A stretch of DNA of 32,340 nt, taken from NCBI GenBank assembly GCA_020431405.1, contig JAGQIK010000473.1, positions 1 to 32,340 of the forward strand, read 5' to 3'. A program made the position numbers and the translations under genes. Positions 1 to 11,605 of the stretch are shown one piece after another. Below the pieces are notes generated by a model. It did no database searches and was not told where the DNA came from. It saw only the letters and a program-made list of their open reading frames with translations. Numbering within the stretch: position 1 is the first letter of the stretch; each line of letters begins with the position of its first letter. Origin of the DNA: Myxococcales bacterium. Lineage in GTDB: Bacteria; Myxococcota_A; Polyangia; GCA-2747355.

Positions 1-740
1 CACGCGCCGCGCTCGCGCTGCCGCGCGCGCTGCTCGAGCGCGCCGAGCAGGCGGATCTCGTCTCGGGCCTGGCGGGCCTGCTGTTGGCCCTCGGCGCGCT
101 GGCCGATCACAGCGACGCTGACCTGCGCGAGCCGATGCGCGTTTGCGGCGAGCGGCTGCTGGCGCTCGCCGTCGCGCAGCCAGTGGGCATCGGCTGGCCG
201 CCGTTGGCCGGCGGCGCGCCGCTCTGCAGCATGGCCCACGGCAACGCCGGGATCGCGCTGGCGCTGGTCGAGGCCTGGCAACGCAGCGGCGAGGCGTCGC
301 TGCTCGAAGGCGCCCGCGCCGCCCTCGACTACGAGCACGCGGCCTTCGACGAGGTCCGCGGGGCCTGGCCGGATCTGCGCGCGCCCGACGCCCCGCCGAT
401 GAGCACCTGGTGTCACGGCGCCCCGGGGATCGCGCTCTCTCGCGCGCGTGTCCTGCAGCTCGACGATCGCCCGTCGTCGCGCCAAGACCTCGCGCGAGCG
501 CTGGCCGTCACCCGCGCGGCTGCGCTGCGCGCACCGCACCTGTGCTGCGGGCGCGCGGGGCTTTCGGAGATCCTGCGCGAGCTGGGCGCAGGCGCGGAGG
601 GATCCACAAAAACGACCGACGGCTGGCAGGATCTGCCAGCCGCCGGGCTGATGATCGGACTTTCTGGGGTCGGCTACGGGCTATTGGCCCGCAGCCTGCC
701 CGCGCCCAGACTGCCAAGCGTGCTACGGCTCGGCAGCTAG
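1..740 (+). CDS. Lanthipeptide synthetase (LanM), C-terminal cyclase domain; 5' partial
   Basis: The frame is open from base 3 at the window edge and ends at TAG 738-740, so only the last ~245 residues are present. They match the LanC-like cyclase domain, an alpha/alpha toroid that adds Cys thiols to dehydrated Ser/Thr. Visible motifs are DLVSGLAG near the edge, MAHGNAGIA, WCHGAPGIAL, HLCCGRAG and a closing PGLM-type segment read as AAGLMIGLSGVGYGLL. In this family the zinc is held by the Cys of WC-G and the Cys-His of CHG; here the second motif is CCG, giving a three-cysteine site as in ProcM-type class II enzymes. The C-terminal LPSVLRL ending fits LanM rather than stand-alone LanC, but the dehydratase half lies outside the window. 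The gene converges on the precursor gene with a 16-nt gap. Confidence 0.85.
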   Translation, partial: RAALALPRALLERAEQADLVSGLAGLLLALGALADHSDADLREPMRVCGERLLALAVAQPVGIGWPPLAGGAPLCSMAHGNAGIALALVEAWQRSGEASLLEGARAALDYEHAAFDEVRGAWPDLRAPDAPPMSTWCHGAPGIALSRARVLQLDDRPSSRQDLARALAVTRAAALRAPHLCCGRAGLSEILRELGAGAEGSTKTTDGWQDLPAAGLMIGLSGVGYGLLARSLPAPRLPSVLRLGS

Positions 741-756
741 ACCGCGGTACGTTCCG

Positions 757-1095
757 CTACCAGGGCACGCACTCCTTGCCCTGCGTCGAGGTGGGCATGG
801 AGAAGATCTTGCGGAACTTGGACGCGCTCGCCGAGAAGCTGCCGAAGGAGGCGCCGCCGGCCACGGCCGCGAGGTCGCCTTCGTCCAGCTCGTCCGCTGC
901 GGGCGGCGGCGGCGAGAGGGTGATGTAGGTGGTGGTGTCGTTGTTCTCGACAACCTTGATGTTCATGCCGTCGGGGACGGGCATGCCGTGCTCGGCGAGG
1001 ACGGCCTTCGGATCCGCCAGGAAGCGCTTCTTGAACGCCTCGTCCTTCCAACACTTACCAATGATTTCACCAAGTCTGCTCGTGTCGTCAGCCAT
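757..1095 (-). CDS. Lanthipeptide precursor with NHLP-type leader
   Basis: 112 residues. ATG at 1095 is chosen because AAGGAG lies about 10 nt upstream; the frame stays open far beyond, but that is the shadow of the oppositely transcribed gene. Residues 1-60 have the nitrile-hydratase-like leader pattern: CWKDEAFKKRFLADPKAVL, then EHGMPVPDGMNIKVVEN and a TYITLSPPP stretch. An acidic DELDEGDLAAVAGG (68-81) ends in the double-glycine site used by peptidase-containing ABC transporters. The 31-residue core (82-112) holds nine Ser/Thr but only one Cys (C109), plus a cationic KFRK stretch and the ending KECVPW. It therefore predicts at most one lanthionine, with other residues possibly left as Dha/Dhb. 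NHLP leaders are known partners of CCG-type LanM enzymes, which matches the neighbour. The structure of the product is inference. Confidence 0.85.
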   Translation of the reverse strand: MADDTSRLGEIIGKCWKDEAFKKRFLADPKAVLAEHGMPVPDGMNIKVVENNDTTTYITLSPPPPAADELDEGDLAAVAGGASFGSFSASASKFRKIFSMPTSTQGKECVPW

Positions 1096-1152
1096 CTCGC
1101 GCTTCTCCTTTTCGCTGCGCAGGCGTTGATTACCAAAGCTGTCAGAAAACCG

Positions 1153-2181
1153 ATGCATCATATGCGTTTTGTCGCAGACGAAGCAACCAGCACCCAAAAC
1201 CGGCCCTTGGCGGTGCGGCTGGCCAGCAGCTACGACGCCGAGACCCTCGCGCGGGAGGTGGCGGCGCTGGCCGGCACCGAGCACGGCCAGCCGGGGCCGT
1301 TCGCCACCCTCGGCTGGGACGGCATCGCGCTCGTGCAGGGCGACGGGCGCGCCGACGACGCTCGCTCGCCGCGCCCCAGCGTGGGCGGCGCCCAGCCCAC
1401 GGCGGCGCTCGCCCGCTGCCCCTACCTGACCGAAGCGCTCGGCGCGCTGCCGGCGCCGCTGCTCTGCGCGCGACTCTTGTATCTCGAGCCGGGCGGCACG
1501 GTAGGCGCCCACCGCGATCCCATCGGCCCGCCGGTGGGCGTGGTGCGGTTGCACATCCCGATCGTGACGCACGACGAGGTGCGCTTCTTTCTCGGCGGCG
1601 AGCGCCTGCGCTGGTCGCCCGGCGAGCTGTGGTACGGCGACTTCGCCTTCGCCCACTGGCTGGAAAACCCGAGCCCCATCACGCGCGTGCACCTCGTGCT
1701 CGACAGCACGCTCAGCGACGGGCTCCTCGCGCTGTTCCCCGAGCCGCTGCGCGCGCCGCTCTGCGCGGGGGGCGCCTACCTGCACGCGCCACCCGTCGGC
1801 CTCGCCGCCGCGGGCCTCGATCGCATCGCGGCGCATCGCCTCTACATGCCGGCCGCGGCGCTGCCCGGCGTGCTCTCGGACATGACGCTCGACGTGCACC
1901 CCGAGGGCGACGCGCTCTTCGCGTTGGGACGGCGCGACGACGGCAGCGAGCAGCGCGTCGTCTTCGATCCCGTCGGCGAGCGCTGCCTGACCATCCGCGG
2001 CTACTTTCCCGGCGTGACCATCGAGTACGCCCTCGACGACGACGGCGCCGCACGCGCGGCGACGCTGGTACATCGCGGGCGCCAGGCGCTGCCGGCGGGC
2101 GCCTCCAACGACGACGAGCGCGCGCCGCTGACGCTCTCCGAGGCGCGCTTCGACCTGCCGATCGACGCGGCGCACGGGTAG
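1153..2181 (+). CDS. Fe(II)/2-oxoglutarate hydroxylase, Asp/Asn/Pro hydroxylase-like
   Basis: 342 residues from ATG 1153 (ATG 1162 is equally possible; neither has a clear ribosome site). The frame is open upstream, but that part overlaps the precursor gene and looks non-coding. Residues ~105-190 match the aspartyl/asparaginyl/proline hydroxylase fold (PF05118): RLLYLEPGGTVGAHRDP, RLHIPIVTHDEVRFFLGG, then GELWYGDFAFAHWLENPS and ITRVHLVLD. Predicted iron ligands are H120, D122 and H168, with R178 as the 2-oxoglutarate anchor. The HxD carboxylate is present, unlike human AspH, whose site has two histidines only; bacterial cis-proline hydroxylases of the same family keep the triad. The C-terminal ~140 residues are unassigned. 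The next gene follows 9 nt later. The likely role is tailoring of the neighbouring RiPP; the substrate is unknown. Confidence 0.75.
   Translation: MHHMRFVADEATSTQNRPLAVRLASSYDAETLAREVAALAGTEHGQPGPFATLGWDGIALVQGDGRADDARSPRPSVGGAQPTAALARCPYLTEALGALPAPLLCARLLYLEPGGTVGAHRDPIGPPVGVVRLHIPIVTHDEVRFFLGGERLRWSPGELWYGDFAFAHWLENPSPITRVHLVLDSTLSDGLLALFPEPLRAPLCAGGAYLHAPPVGLAAAGLDRIAAHRLYMPAAALPGVLSDMTLDVHPEGDALFALGRRDDGSEQRVVFDPVGERCLTIRGYFPGVTIEYALDDDGAARAATLVHRGRQALPAGASNDDERAPLTLSEARFDLPIDAAHG
1157..1186 (-). promoter_or_regulatory. Possible sigma70-type promoter for the precursor gene
   Basis: On the minus strand TTGCTT (1186-1181) is followed after 18 nt by TATGAT (1162-1157), a 5/6 match to the -10 consensus with a weak -35. 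It would start transcription about 55 nt before the precursor ATG. It overlaps the start of the divergent hydroxylase gene, so either the site is fortuitous or that gene starts a little further in. Confidence 0.3.
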
Positions 2182-2190
2182 ACTCGCGCG

Positions 2191-3696
2191 ATGCCTCGTA
2201 CCGTCACGCTGCAACCCGACGCCGCGATGTGGCTGCTCTCGCGCGCCGACCACGACGCGCTCTTCGCCAACGACCCCGACGCCGTGCCGCACCCGCGCTA
2301 TCGCTGGGTCTCGTCGGCGCAGCTGATCTACTACGAGCCCACCAGCGTGGCGCAGGAGATGCGCCTCGCCGCGGCCTTCGAGCAGGCGCAGGCGCCCAGC
2401 GCGCCGACGGTCGAGCAAGCGCGCGCCATCTACGATGAGATCGCCGACGAGATCCCGCTCTTCGCCTTCGAGCGCGATGGCGACCTGTGGCACATCCGCA
2501 ATCAGAGCGCGCCGAGCTACGGCGATCCGCTCGTCGAGCGCGACTGGGTGCTCGTCGTCGGTCGCGAGGGCGAAGCCGGCTTCGAGCGCGCGCCGCTGGC
2601 CGGCGCGGAGGTCGCGCGCGCGCTCTCGTGGCTGCCGCTGCTCGACGGACACCACACCCTCGACGAGGTCGCCGCGGCGGTGCGCGGCAGCGCCGCCGCC
2701 GTGCGCGTCTTTCGCTGTCTCTCGCGCGCGGAGCTTTTTGCCGTCGACGAGACGGCAGGCTTCGATCGCGCCGCGCTGCCCGAGCTGCTCTTCGTCAGCC
2801 ACTCGTGTCTGTTCGTGCGCGGCGAGCGCGCCTCGGTGATCTTCGACCCGGCGATCCTGTCGTCCACCGAGGCGCTCGCGTCGGCGGGCCGGCGCCCCTA
2901 CGCGCTGATCGGTCAGGCCGACGCCGTCTTCGTCACGCACAACCACTGGGACCACCTCAGCTGCGAGACGATGCTGCGCATCCCGCGCCAGACGCCGATC
3001 TACGTGCCGCGCCTGAGCGAGCCTTCGCTGGCCAACCCGCCGATGCGCGTGGTGCTCGAGGCGTTCGGGTTTACCAACGTGCGCGAGGCGGCGCCGTGGG
3101 ACGAGGTCACCGTCGGCGACATCGATGTGCTGATCGTGCCATTCTTTGGCGAGCCGTTCGGCGTCGGCTCGCGCTTCGACGGCTTCACCTACCACGTCGA
3201 GGTCAGCGGCCACGCGCTCTACGGCACGGTGGACGCGTGGCGCGACGAGGCCGGCGACATGGACCCCGTGATCGAGGCGCTACGCCAGCGCAAGCGCGTC
3301 GACACGCTGCTGTTCGGCGCGTCCAACATGCACCACGAGCCGCTCTACAGCGCCGCGCACCTGCGTCACTACTCCAACGAGCTGGTCGCGCGCCCCGATC
3401 TGGTGCGCTTTCATCCGTGCGTCGACGACGTCGCGCGCTGGTCGCGCGTGCTCGAGCCGCAGCGCCTGATCCCCTACGCCGAGTTCATCTTCAGCGGCGC
3501 GCGCGACTGCGACGACCTGCGCGCCGCCACGTTATCTGCGCGCGGCAACCTCGCCGCCTACTGGCAGCACTTCGCCGGCGAGGACGGCGGCGTGCCCGAG
3601 TATCTGCGCGCCTTCAAGGGCGACATCGATCGGCTGGCCAGCGAGGTGCCGGCGCAGCTGGTCGCGTTGCACCCGCTGCAGGGCCTTTGGTTGTAG
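2191..3696 (+). CDS. Metallo-beta-lactamase-fold protein with PqqD-like N-terminal region
   Basis: 501 residues from ATG 2191, nine nt after the hydroxylase stop, so the two form a unit. Residues ~195-480 are a metallo-beta-lactamase fold: VIFDP near 217, the metal-binding signature VTHNHWDH (248-255), and later a GTVDAWRD segment that could supply the bridging Asp. Residues ~90-190 include the segment LSWLPLLDGHHTLDEVAAAV, which resembles the winged-helix domain of PqqD-like RiPP recognition elements and related fusions. The N-terminal ~85 residues are unassigned. UlaG-like hydrolases are the nearest superfamily I can name. Placement beside a precursor and LanM suggests peptide modification, hydrolysis or self-protection, which is inference. 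The stop codon directly abuts the stop of the opposing gene. Confidence 0.75.
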   Translation: MPRTVTLQPDAAMWLLSRADHDALFANDPDAVPHPRYRWVSSAQLIYYEPTSVAQEMRLAAAFEQAQAPSAPTVEQARAIYDEIADEIPLFAFERDGDLWHIRNQSAPSYGDPLVERDWVLVVGREGEAGFERAPLAGAEVARALSWLPLLDGHHTLDEVAAAVRGSAAAVRVFRCLSRAELFAVDETAGFDRAALPELLFVSHSCLFVRGERASVIFDPAILSSTEALASAGRRPYALIGQADAVFVTHNHWDHLSCETMLRIPRQTPIYVPRLSEPSLANPPMRVVLEAFGFTNVREAAPWDEVTVGDIDVLIVPFFGEPFGVGSRFDGFTYHVEVSGHALYGTVDAWRDEAGDMDPVIEALRQRKRVDTLLFGASNMHHEPLYSAAHLRHYSNELVARPDLVRFHPCVDDVARWSRVLEPQRLIPYAEFIFSGARDCDDLRAATLSARGNLAAYWQHFAGEDGGVPEYLRAFKGDIDRLASEVPAQLVALHPLQGLWL

Positions 3697-5178
3697 CTAG
3701 GGCGCGACGGCGTAGGCGCCGGCGGTGGGCATCGTCGTGTCGAAGCAGTTGCCCTCCATGTCCGAGAGCGGACCGAGCCCGATGTCGCGGTTGCTGCCGT
3801 AGCCGATGACCTTGCTGCTGGGCTTGAGCTTGAAGTTGCCGCTTTGCACGTCGACGAACTCGGGGTCGATTCCCGCGGTGGTGCCGGTGGTCGAGACGGG
3901 GAAGTTGGGCGTCGAGTCTTGCGGTGGCGCGTCGTGCGCGTACCAGGTGTTGTGCTCGAAGCCGAAGCTATTCGCGTCGGTGTCGGGGCCGATGTTTATC
4001 GCCGTCGCCACGTCGGCGCGCGCGAAGTAGAAGATGTTGTTGTAGAGCAGCCCCTTGCGCGCGGGAACGAAGGTGTAGCCGCCGCCGGTGGTGGTCTCCT
4101 GCAGGATGCGCAGCAGCCACTTGGTGGGGCTGACGATGGTGTTGTGCGCGGCCAGACAGCTGTCGCAGCCGACGAAGGCGAACGGCACTGTGCTGCCGAC
4201 GAACACGTTGGCCAGCACGCGGATGTTGATCGCCTCGGCGTTGTCGGCGCTCTGCGAGAGCGGCGGCCGGAAGAAGGTCAATCCCGTGGAGCCGCCCATG
4301 TTCACGCTGCGCTCGCCGGCGTCTTCGAACCAGTTGTTCTTGATGTCGATGTCTACCGAGCCGCCCTTGGCTTGCACGCCGTTGCCCGACGTCTGCTCGA
4401 AGCGGTTGCGCGCGATGACGCCCTTGTGGCAACCGACGTGATCGATGCCGCTGCCCGACATGCCGCCGCCGCAGCGCTTGAAGGTGCTGTCGAGCACCCA
4501 GAAGTCGTCGAGGCCGGATAGCTTGAGACAGTCTTGGTTGCCGCTCCCGCCGATGTCGTGAATGTCGAGCCCCTGAAACACGATCCAGCGCGTGGCCTCG
4601 GGGTCGGCGTAGTCGCCGCCGTCGTCGCAGTTGATGCCGTTGGCGGTGCTGCCGCTGACCTCGAGGTCGTGCACCACCAGGTAGCGCACCTTGGTCAGGT
4701 GCAGCGCTTCGCCGCCGCCTTGCAGCACGGGCTTGGTCTCGCCCGGCGCGCCGCCGATCCAGATCGGCGCCGCGGCCGTTCCCGCGAGGCCGGATATGGA
4801 GACGCCACCGCTGTACGTGCCGGAGTGCACGCGGATGGCGCTGCCCGGCGTGGCGTGCTTGACCGCCTCGCCGATGCTCGCGTAGGGCTTGGTGGCGCTG
4901 CCGTCGCCGTTTTGGTCGCTGCCGTTTTGCGCGACGTGGATTTCGTTCTGCGGCTGCTTGCCGCTGGCGAAGGTCTGGATGCCGCAGCCGCTGGGCGTAG
5001 CGTCGGGCTGCGTGTCGGGCTGCGGGCCGTCGGGGCGCAGCACGTCGTCGCGCGGACCGTCGACGCCGCCGTCGGCGCGTGACGCGTCGCCATCGGGGCC
5101 GGGGCTGCTGTCGGAGCAGCCGGGCGCGAGCAGGGTGGCAAAACAGAGCAAGGTAAGCGTCGGCAATAAGCGCTTCAT
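3697..5178 (-). CDS. Right-handed beta-helix lipoprotein
   Basis: 493 residues from ATG 5178. The start is set by a hydrophobic signal MKRLLPTLTLLCFATLLAPG ending at C21 (lipobox APGC) and a G-rich stretch just upstream; the frame upstream belongs to the kinase. Residues ~25-65 are a Ser/Asp/Gly/Pro linker typical of surface lipoproteins. From ~75 the sequence follows the parallel beta-helix pattern seen in DUF1565 and pectate-lyase-like proteins: IHVAQNGSDQNGDG, YASIGEAVKHATPGSAIRV, then many rungs with N-x-F/W and G-I/V repeats, several Cys pairs and a closing IGYGSNRDIGLGP. Such folds often bind or cleave polysaccharides; no catalytic residues are obvious. Its ATG lies 2 nt after the kinase stop, so the two are almost certainly co-transcribed and this could be a cell-surface partner or output of the kinase. 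Confidence 0.8.
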   Translation of the reverse strand: MKRLLPTLTLLCFATLLAPGCSDSSPGPDGDASRADGGVDGPRDDVLRPDGPQPDTQPDATPSGCGIQTFASGKQPQNEIHVAQNGSDQNGDGSATKPYASIGEAVKHATPGSAIRVHSGTYSGGVSISGLAGTAAAPIWIGGAPGETKPVLQGGGEALHLTKVRYLVVHDLEVSGSTANGINCDDGGDYADPEATRWIVFQGLDIHDIGGSGNQDCLKLSGLDDFWVLDSTFKRCGGGMSGSGIDHVGCHKGVIARNRFEQTSGNGVQAKGGSVDIDIKNNWFEDAGERSVNMGGSTGLTFFRPPLSQSADNAEAINIRVLANVFVGSTVPFAFVGCDSCLAAHNTIVSPTKWLLRILQETTTGGGYTFVPARKGLLYNNIFYFARADVATAINIGPDTDANSFGFEHNTWYAHDAPPQDSTPNFPVSTTGTTAGIDPEFVDVQSGNFKLKPSSKVIGYGSNRDIGLGPLSDMEGNCFDTTMPTAGAYAVAP

Positions 5179-5180
5179 GT

Positions 5181-7709
<2,529 letters not shown>

Positions 7710-9999: not shown

Positions 10000-10297
10000 G
10001 TCTATCTCCTCGCTGGCGGGGCTGTTCGTGATGTCCGCGTTAGCGTTAGAAATGTTGTCGCCGCGGGAGAGTGCAACCGGTGTGCCGCGAGGTAGGTAAT
10101 GTAGGTGGCCACTGCCGTTGCGGCAGTTGTAGCCTGTAGGTTCCAGGGGTTACGAGAGAGCAGGCGGCGCGGCGGCGCGCGCAGAAGCCGCACTATCGGA
10201 GAGTTTGGAGGGTGGGCCGAGGCGTTCGGATTTCCGAAGGATGCCGGCCAAAGGATCCGCCAGGAAGCAGATCAGGGAGCGGGGGGCGAGAGCGCGG
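10000..10297. other. Intergenic region of 298 bp with two short inverted repeats
   Basis: No gene is supported here. ACTGCCG-TTG-CGGCAGT (10111-10127) and TTCGGA-TT-TCCGAA (10225-10238) are perfect short hairpins. Neither has a T-tract, so they are weak candidates for terminators of the upstream M28 gene or for operators. The promoter of the gene starting at 9999 should lie at the left end; I see only a poor TTGCAC-N17-ATTTCT candidate there. Confidence 0.5.
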
Positions 10298-11605
10298 CTA
10301 GAGGATGTTGCAGATGTTCTCGGGGTAGCTGGTGCCCGCGAGACACATGATGCGCTGCACCGCGCTGCGCAGCGAGCCGACCTCTGCGGCGCTGAGCTGG
10401 CCGCCGCCGTCGACCTTGGCTTTGGCGGCCTTGACGGCGTCGAGGTCCTTCTTGAGGTTGCCGCGGCTGACGCTGCCCACCATCTTGGCGAGCCCTTCGG
10501 GATCGAGCGCCGCCTCGATGACCTTGACCAGCGCGGAGGCGTCGTTCTCGTTGTCCATCGCCGTGGCGTTGAACGTCGGCGCGGCGTCGCCGCTGCGGTT
10601 GCCGAGCTGCTCGGTGATCGAGAGCAGCCAGTCGGCCTCGAGCGTCATCTTGGGCAGGTTGAGGCCGGCGATCTCGTCGCCGCCGGTGTGATAGGCCTTG
10701 TTTTGTCCGTTCGAGAAGAACAGCACCGGGATGTTCTTGAGCCGGAAGTCGTGATAGTCGCTCCACGGCTGGTCACCGAGCGGCGTCTTCTCGACCAGGT
10801 GCAGCGACGCGCGCTGCGCGTCGAGCGCGGGCGGTTTGGCGGCGGCGATGACGGCGGCCTTGACCTCGGGGCTCAGCTCGGCGCCGAGCACGAAGTGGTT
10901 CTGGTAGCCGGGCCACAGGTTGCCTCCCACCAGGTCGAGCACCAGCGCCGCGTCGACGCTCGCCAGCGGCAGCGTCGGGTGAGCGACCCAGAAGGCCGAG
11001 CCCATGGCGGCGGTGAGGAAGGTCGGCGGCTCTTCAGCGTCCCACAGCGCCACGATCACCGAGCGCTTGGGCGGGCTCTTGGCCAGCGCGCAGGCCACGC
11101 GGATAACGATCGCCACGCCGGCGGCGTTGTCGTCGGCGCCGTTGCAGATCTGGCCCTGGCAGTTGCCGAGGTGATCGAAGTGGGCGCTGATCACGACGTG
11201 GCGCGCCTTCTCGGCGGCCGAGCCGCTGCCCTCGATCTTGCCGATGACGTTGGTGCCTTTGCCGGCGGTGATCTTCTGCTCGAAGGTGCCGCCATCGCCG
11301 GCCGGCGTGACGTTGCACTTCTTGAGCTCGTCGATGACGTAGGCGCGCGCCTTGTCGCCGCCCGGCGTGCCTTCATCGCGGCCGTCCATGTTGTCGTCGG
11401 CTAGCGCGCTGACGATGCGCTTGAGCTCGGCCTCGGCAATGAGCGGCGTGTAGGGCGTGGTGGAGGTGTCGCCGCTGCCGGTGTCGCCAACCGTGCCTTC
11501 GCCTGCTTTGGCGTCGCCGGCGTCGGGCTTGGTGTCGCTGTCGCTGCAGCCGGCCGCTACGAGCGCTACCAACACGATATGCATAAGAAATGAACGAATA
11601 AACAT
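10298..11605 (-). CDS. M28-family zinc aminopeptidase, lipoprotein
   Basis: 435 residues from ATG 11605, chosen because GGAGG lies 8 nt upstream and the signal MFIRSFLMHIVLVALVAAG ends in a lipobox cysteine (C20). A Gly/Asp/Thr-rich linker runs to ~55. The M28 domain then shows the full two-zinc set: SAHFDHLG (H142, D144), GADDNAAG (D159, bridging), WDAEE (catalytic E191, zinc E192), LDLVGG (D224) and YHTGGDE (H306). The family removes N-terminal residues from peptides. The C-terminal ~110 residues are helical and charged, ending in a Cys pair (LAGTSYPENIC). It is divergent from the S9 peptidase, so two exported peptidases share a 95-bp control region, consistent with extracellular protein digestion. 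Active-site conservation is complete. Confidence 0.92.
   Translation of the reverse strand: MFIRSFLMHIVLVALVAAGCSDSDTKPDAGDAKAGEGTVGDTGSGDTSTTPYTPLIAEAELKRIVSALADDNMDGRDEGTPGGDKARAYVIDELKKCNVTPAGDGGTFEQKITAGKGTNVIGKIEGSGSAAEKARHVVISAHFDHLGNCQGQICNGADDNAAGVAIVIRVACALAKSPPKRSVIVALWDAEEPPTFLTAAMGSAFWVAHPTLPLASVDAALVLDLVGGNLWPGYQNHFVLGAELSPEVKAAVIAAAKPPALDAQRASLHLVEKTPLGDQPWSDYHDFRLKNIPVLFFSNGQNKAYHTGGDEIAGLNLPKMTLEADWLLSITEQLGNRSGDAAPTFNATAMDNENDASALVKVIEAALDPEGLAKMVGSVSRGNLKKDLDAVKAAKAKVDGGGQLSAAEVGSLRSAVQRIMCLAGTSYPENICNIL

Follow-up and report, generated by a model that had tools for sequence, protein, structure and literature searches.

The 32,340-nucleotide contig JAGQIK010000473.1 of the Myxococcales bacterium assembly GCA_020431405.1 (the window; contig C265) starts inside a gene for a lanthionine synthetase (LanM), and its first 3,696 nucleotides are probably one end of an undescribed hybrid cluster of the class II lanthipeptide type, equipped with a CmlA-like oxygenase that is dedicated to a ribosomally synthesized and post-translationally modified peptide (RiPP). 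As far as could be found, diiron hydroxylases of the CmlA type are known only from pathways of the nonribosomal peptide synthetase (NRPS) type. The substrates of CmlA (chloramphenicol) and FrsH (FR900359) are bound to carrier proteins of NRPS lines. The peptide made by the cluster is predicted, from its gene content, to carry a thioamide, a carbamoylated lysine and two hydroxylations. The source assembly comprises 11.2 Mb in 733 contigs, with a completeness of 95.7%.

At the contig start lies the C-terminal (cyclase) part of LanM (3-740, plus strand), which has lost its 5' end. This fragment matches PF05147 (LANC_like; E 1.1e-30) and TIGR03897 (E 8.3e-47), and its cyclase domain looks intact, with a WCHG motif at nt 408 and a CCG zinc motif at nt 543. 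Convergent to LanM, 16 bp from its stop codon, is the gene for a precursor of 112 residues (757-1095, minus strand), with an AAGGAG ribosome-binding site upstream of its ATG at 1095. The precursor belongs to the NHLP family (TIGR03793, leader_NHLP, 76.2 bits against a cut-off of 50.9) and has a GG motif at residues 80-81, the presumed leader cleavage site. The predicted core that follows, ASFGSFSASASKFRKIFSMPTSTQGKECVPW (760-852, minus strand), includes many Ser and Thr residues and a single Cys, as a class II lanthipeptide precursor should. A divergent intergenic region of 57 bp (1096-1152), probably containing both promoters, separates this gene from one encoding a 2-oxoglutarate (2OG)/Fe(II)-dependent protein of the Asp/Arg-hydroxylase family (1153-2181, plus strand, ATG at 1153). 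The hydroxylase matches PF05118 (E 2.1e-15, 57.4 bits against a cut-off of 22.6), and H119 and D121 (HRD, 119-121) together with H167 align with the iron ligands of the HxD...H triad; compared with known structures it gives weak matches to proline hydroxylases (1e5r, 4p7w), and its structure model is poor (predicted template modelling score, pTM, 0.54). Nine bp past its stop codon begins the gene for a protein of metallo-beta-lactamase (MBL) fold (2191-3696, plus strand), the predicted diiron oxygenase. These genes are not chance reading frames, since each of them scores above the curated threshold of a family, which in the case of the truncated LanM fragment is the Pfam one only. An earlier sequence-only reading had proposed a RiPP cluster here, with a CCG-type LanM, an NHLP precursor with a GG site and, across 57 bp, a 2OG hydroxylase-like gene tightly paired with an MBL gene; the domain and motif matches bear this out, and it is the nature of the MBL protein and the extent of the cluster that call for revision.

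In the MBL protein Pfam sees generic MBL domains only (PF12706 and PF00753, above cut-off). A two-sequence profile of this protein and its relative from Enhygromyxa salina matches CmlA (4jo0, E 1.1e-19) and FrsH (8a90, E 5.1e-15). The AlphaFold2 model (pTM 0.83; weak at residues 379-401 and 432-455) aligns with FrsH at Z 22.6 and with CmlA at Z 20-22 across residues 1-495, the N-terminal domain of CmlA included, with about 19% of the structurally aligned residues identical; nearly all other structural matches are limited to the MBL domain. The HxHxDH motif, the motif-2 Glu and the motif-4 Asp of CmlA-type diiron oxygenases are all present, with H250, H252, H255, E321 and D348 found in 30/30 aligned proteins and D254 in 29/30. 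E321 aligns with CmlA E377, the glutamate mutated in PDB 5kil (E377D), at a position where hydrolases have His. The last His ligand of CmlA is H432; the candidate counterpart, H382, is shared only with the Enhygromyxa protein and lies where the alignment is unsure and the model has a local confidence (pLDDT) <50. A Glu at motif 2 has been described for iron oxidoreductases of the MBL superfamily, the flavodiiron proteins (PMC7785958). Because of the full-length match to CmlA and FrsH and of this Glu, the protein is read as an oxygenase, and both sequence and model suggest that it is probably an iron enzyme related to CmlA, not a hydrolase, which amends the earlier description of the pair while its MBL-fold domains and tight spacing stand. 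It differs from CmlA and FrsH in its low identity, in its separate branch and in its likely substrate, a ribosomal precursor. The helices around residues 138-179 were considered as a possible RiPP recognition element; CmlA and FrsH align over the same region. A second CmlA-like MBL gene of this genome lies at the end of contig C527 (locus L012, 3036-4253, minus strand); its nearest relative is an MBL protein of genome G469 encoded beside LanC and a C39 exporter.

MBL proteins of this type recur in other RiPP loci. Among the matches listed from a scan of genome contigs there is at least one full-length relative, that of Enhygromyxa salina, where the MBL gene adjoins two peptide beta-hydroxylases of family TIGR04267 (HExxH), both above cut-off. 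On plasmid pPg_03 of Pseudanabaena galeata, a LanM, a Nif11 precursor, the MBL protein and two 2OG-Fe(II) oxygenases are encoded in a row; in Streptomyces sp. ADI95-16 the MBL and LanC genes share a few bases, and GrrM and LanB are encoded alongside; and on a Burkholderia arboris plasmid the MBL gene overlaps a gene for a Cupin_8/JmjC-type oxygenase. Several Polyangia encode the MBL protein together with LanB and a C39 exporter. In genome G116 (locus L134, 6444-8708, minus strand) the MBL domain is fused to Lant_dehydr_C (PF14028), with Lant_dehydr_N in a separate gene, and this fusion ties the MBL protein directly to lanthipeptide enzymes. The same locus also encodes a Nif11-like precursor ending in IMCCW and a C39-type exporter. 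The remaining annotated plasmid matches belong to NRPS or other adenylating pathways, and in a tree the RiPP-locus and NRPS-type proteins fall on opposite sides of a branch with 100/100 support. The sequence-only reading had made its proposal depend on the tailoring genes being kept beside such precursors in related genomes: nothing closely resembling the complete cluster turned up (318 genomes of the class for the radical S-adenosylmethionine (SAM) gene described below, 379 genomes of the phylum for the precursor tail), whereas the MBL type does recur with 2OG-type oxygenases and lanthipeptide enzymes in other phyla.

The precursors point to a common C-terminal feature. A second NHLP precursor is encoded on contig C200 (locus L011, 13333-13680, plus strand); it is 52% identical to that of the window, and the two share their last seven residues, GKECVPW (760-780, minus strand, in the window), while the core ahead of this tail varies. 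This heptapeptide is the predicted site of modification or recognition. No tailoring genes were recognised around the C200 precursor, which is probably modified in trans by the enzymes of the cluster. Across the phylum (379 genomes) a GKECVPW-stop pattern occurs nowhere but in these two precursors, and the remaining NHLP matches are distant. Precursors recognised in eight lineages are nearly all Trp-ended, most with Cys-x(0-2)-Trp (MCPSW, MCPW, MCCW, ECVPW). The first five, seen before the idea of a Trp tail arose, all end in Trp: ECVPW in the window and C200 precursors, IMCCW in G116, VMCPW in G260 and PPIKW in Pseudanabaena. A search of the class with the G260 protein added nine genomes, and most of the loci in these encode LanB-like dehydratases along with C39 exporters; where a precursor was recognised, the tails were MCPSW (eight copies in three genomes of one genus), MCPQWY, MCSGWT and one divergent MCAF. 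These counts come from added loci screened for Trp-ended or Cys-Trp open reading frames, the lineages are related, and loci without a recognised precursor are left uncounted. As background, among the 353 called genes of these loci a Cys-x(0-3)-Trp-x(0-1) C-terminus occurs once, in the G116 precursor itself, and Trp within the last two residues in eight. In G462 (locus L159) the precursor has decayed to MCPSR and lacks a leader, and the adjoining MBL protein lacks the metal-binding D254, which is fitting for joint decay. The loci of the MCPSW genus of Polyangia (L156, L157 and L158 in G466, G464 and G461) each contain between two and four short precursors in tandem, their C-termini being KT[VI]MCPSW or similar, with a CmlA-like MBL protein, a LanB-like dehydratase and a C39 exporter; L156 also has a polyprenyl-synthetase-like gene (10052-11011).

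The cluster probably runs beyond the window, to which the earlier reading had confined it. TIGR03897 finds just two LanM pieces in the genome, C265:24-692 (model positions 683-929) and C23:5-1885 (3-598). The C23 piece contains the dehydratase domain DUF4135 (E 1.7e-97), the part of LanM whose absence would have told against the earlier proposal. C23 terminates in TLYSGR, which resembles the start of a LanC-like domain, and C265 opens inside such a domain, with about 80 model positions missing between them. The simplest reading is one LanM gene split by an assembly gap, and it is across this gap that the dehydratase and cyclase domains of a class II enzyme would be brought together. On C23 a radical SAM gene adjoins the N-terminal part of LanM; its PF04055 match is weak, and it has no relatives in the 318 genomes of the class or in plasmids. 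Divergent to it are genes for a NodU-like carbamoyltransferase, a YcaO protein (PF02624, E 8.4e-71; nearest model McrA-glycine thioamidation) and a TfuA protein (PF07812, E 1.2e-45), an adjacent YcaO-TfuA pair as in thioamidated RiPPs, which the split LanM would tie to the window. The carbamoyltransferase matches carbamoyltransferase domains only, with no S8 peptidase fused to it. Of the part of the neighbourhood that was scanned, namely genes next to LanM on C23 and others within the window's first 5.3 kb, none encodes a multinuclear non-heme iron-dependent oxidative enzyme (MNIO) or its partner protein. About 2 kb past TfuA is a Cupin_8/JmjC-type oxygenase gene (locus L010, 10025-11371, minus strand), which may or may not belong to the cluster. 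A dedicated NHLM exporter was not seen adjoining the cluster. The C39 exporter of contig C11, the best in the genome, was rejected as the cluster's own; it falls under the TIGR03796 cut-off and adjoins another peptide. That C39-type ATP-binding cassette exporter and a neighbouring gene (locus L093, 7627-12107, minus strand) stand beside a Gly/Tyr-rich peptide with a GG motif and form a separate, bacteriocin-like system. In the window, the gene following the MBL gene (3697-5271, minus strand) encodes a beta-helix protein and has no RiPP link.

Several observations weigh against a single cluster with a RiPP-dedicated oxygenase acting on the precursor tail. The ends of C23 and C265 do not overlap in sequence, for which reason their adjacency is an inference. 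In the tree the MBL proteins of the window and of Enhygromyxa form a 100/100 pair of their own, which the tree does not put with support within the RiPP branch of MCPxW type, so that the link of the window to the other RiPP branches is one of homology and context and not of a supported clade. The LanB-type loci showed no recognisable 2OG oxygenase next to the MBL gene, and no precursor was found at the MBL loci of Streptomyces, Enhygromyxa, Burkholderia, L161 and L162. Instead of being the modified site, the tail could serve for recognition or as a follower. Finally, the Pseudanabaena Nif11 precursor (locus L129, 4406-4744, plus strand) ends in Trp, and its core lacks Cys; the LanM there may therefore stop at dehydration, or its substrate may be a different precursor.

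This last case also bears on what LanM does in the window. It is somewhat unlikely that the enzyme installs no lanthionine at all and that the product is dehydrated, thioamidated and hydroxylated, its near-C-terminal Cys being consumed by another reaction. The sole core Cys corresponds in position to a Cys at LanB loci in which no LanC was found; the window LanM, on the other hand, has kept WCHG and CCG in its intact-looking cyclase domain. It is likewise unlikely that the MBL protein is a zinc hydrolase which frees the peptide or shortens it by removing its leader or a C-terminal follower. Hydrolases are common in the MBL superfamily, Pfam recognises nothing beyond generic MBL domains here, and a model for trimming exists in the std pathway, which removes a C-terminal EWQE after Lys (PMC13174530), KECVPW having a similar Lys-Glu start. 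The full-length match is nevertheless to CmlA and FrsH and not to hydrolases, the motif-2 Glu occurs in iron oxidoreductases of the superfamily such as CmlA and the flavodiiron proteins, and C39 peptidase-exporters are available for cleavage in related RiPP loci. Quite improbable is the view that C23 and C265 lie apart in the genome, with a LanM/hydroxylase/MBL lanthipeptide cluster in the window and the YcaO-TfuA, carbamoyltransferase and radical SAM genes in a separate pathway. The fragmented assembly and the lack of overlap would allow it, but both contigs break inside LanM at complementary positions, no other LanM piece exists in this largely complete genome, and Gly-Lys-Glu in both precursors suits YcaO-TfuA and carbamoyltransferase chemistry. 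As for the hydroxylase, its relatives in the class occur in varied, unrelated settings without RiPP genes, so the family does not tell the substrate and offers no functional lead. It is very improbable that the hydroxylase and MBL genes form an operon which has nothing to do with the precursor, lies beside it by chance and is divergent from it, given that at least four other lineages have the MBL type in company with RiPP hydroxylases or lanthipeptide enzymes, in one case as a gene fusion.

The analysis shows which genes are present and to which families they belong, the metal ligands, the common precursor tail and the repeated presence of the MBL gene in RiPP loci; for the preferred reading of one hybrid cluster spanning both contigs, we infer the substrate, every reaction, the order of steps and the residue modified. 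LanM would bind the NHLP leader and dehydrate Ser and Thr residues of the core, and would then close one thioether onto the sole core Cys or leave dehydro residues. YcaO-TfuA would thioamidate the backbone ahead of Lys (Gly-Lys), and the NodU-like carbamoyltransferase would convert that Lys to homocitrulline, both as in the std pathway. The MBL-fold protein, as a non-heme diiron oxygenase, may act at or near the C-terminal GKECVPW, and the 2OG hydroxylase may make a second hydroxylation in this region; the two would replace the MNIO of std or act on the Cys or Trp of the tail. A C39 transporter encoded elsewhere would export the peptide and remove its leader.

Parts of this chemistry are already known. 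In the std cluster of Streptomyces thermodiastaticus thioamidation is followed by carbamoylation of Lys and then by MNIO hydroxylation of the resulting homocitrulline (PMC13174530). Common to std and to the genes of the window and C23 are YcaO-TfuA, a NodU-like carbamoyltransferase, Lys-Glu near the precursor C-terminus and a hydroxylation step; std differs in having an MNIO and an S8 peptidase fused to its carbamoyltransferase, with no lanthionine synthetase listed (PMC13174530), whereas the set described here has LanM, the 2OG hydroxylase, the CmlA-like MBL protein and the radical SAM gene. Nocathioamides, in so far as the cited account describes them, are chimeric thioamide lanthipeptides and combine thioamide with lanthipeptide chemistry, as is predicted here (Saad et al., 2021, via PMC13174530). 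Lanthipeptides of class II with NHLP/Nif11 leaders made by CCG-type LanM enzymes, such as the prochlorosins, share the CCG motif, the NHLP leader and the GG site, and to these systems the window and C23 add oxidative, carbamoylating and thioamidating genes. We know of no CmlA-like oxygenase or NHLP leader in the nocathioamides. PqqB is an MBL-fold oxygenase in the pathway of the RiPP-derived cofactor pyrroloquinoline quinone; it is likewise an MBL-fold iron enzyme of a ribosomal-peptide pathway, a likeness of description only, the full-length match of the window protein being to CmlA and FrsH. No description of CmlA-like or MBL proteins in RiPP or lanthipeptide clusters was found in the open-access literature, and an earlier one elsewhere is possible. 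Chimeric thioamide-lanthipeptides, homocitrulline RiPPs and the action of CmlA and FrsH on NRPS substrates have thus been described, and what appears to be new is the presence of CmlA-like proteins in RiPP clusters.

CmlA-like MBL proteins are repeatedly encoded next to lanthipeptide enzymes in Myxococcota, Cyanobacteria and Actinomycetota, and a Burkholderia plasmid has one next to a JmjC-type oxygenase; such genes carry only the annotation "MBL fold metallo-hydrolase". It is tentatively suggested that RiPP-dedicated CmlA-like diiron oxygenases in several phyla modify lanthipeptide-type tails that end in Cys-x-x-Trp or Trp, and that the window cluster adds thioamidation, lysine carbamoylation and 2OG hydroxylation within one peptide. 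The window cluster would also give homocitrulline chemistry, itself newly described, a second context. The short common precursor tail points to where modification should be sought, and a new peptide-modifying oxygenase thereby becomes directly testable by co-expression.

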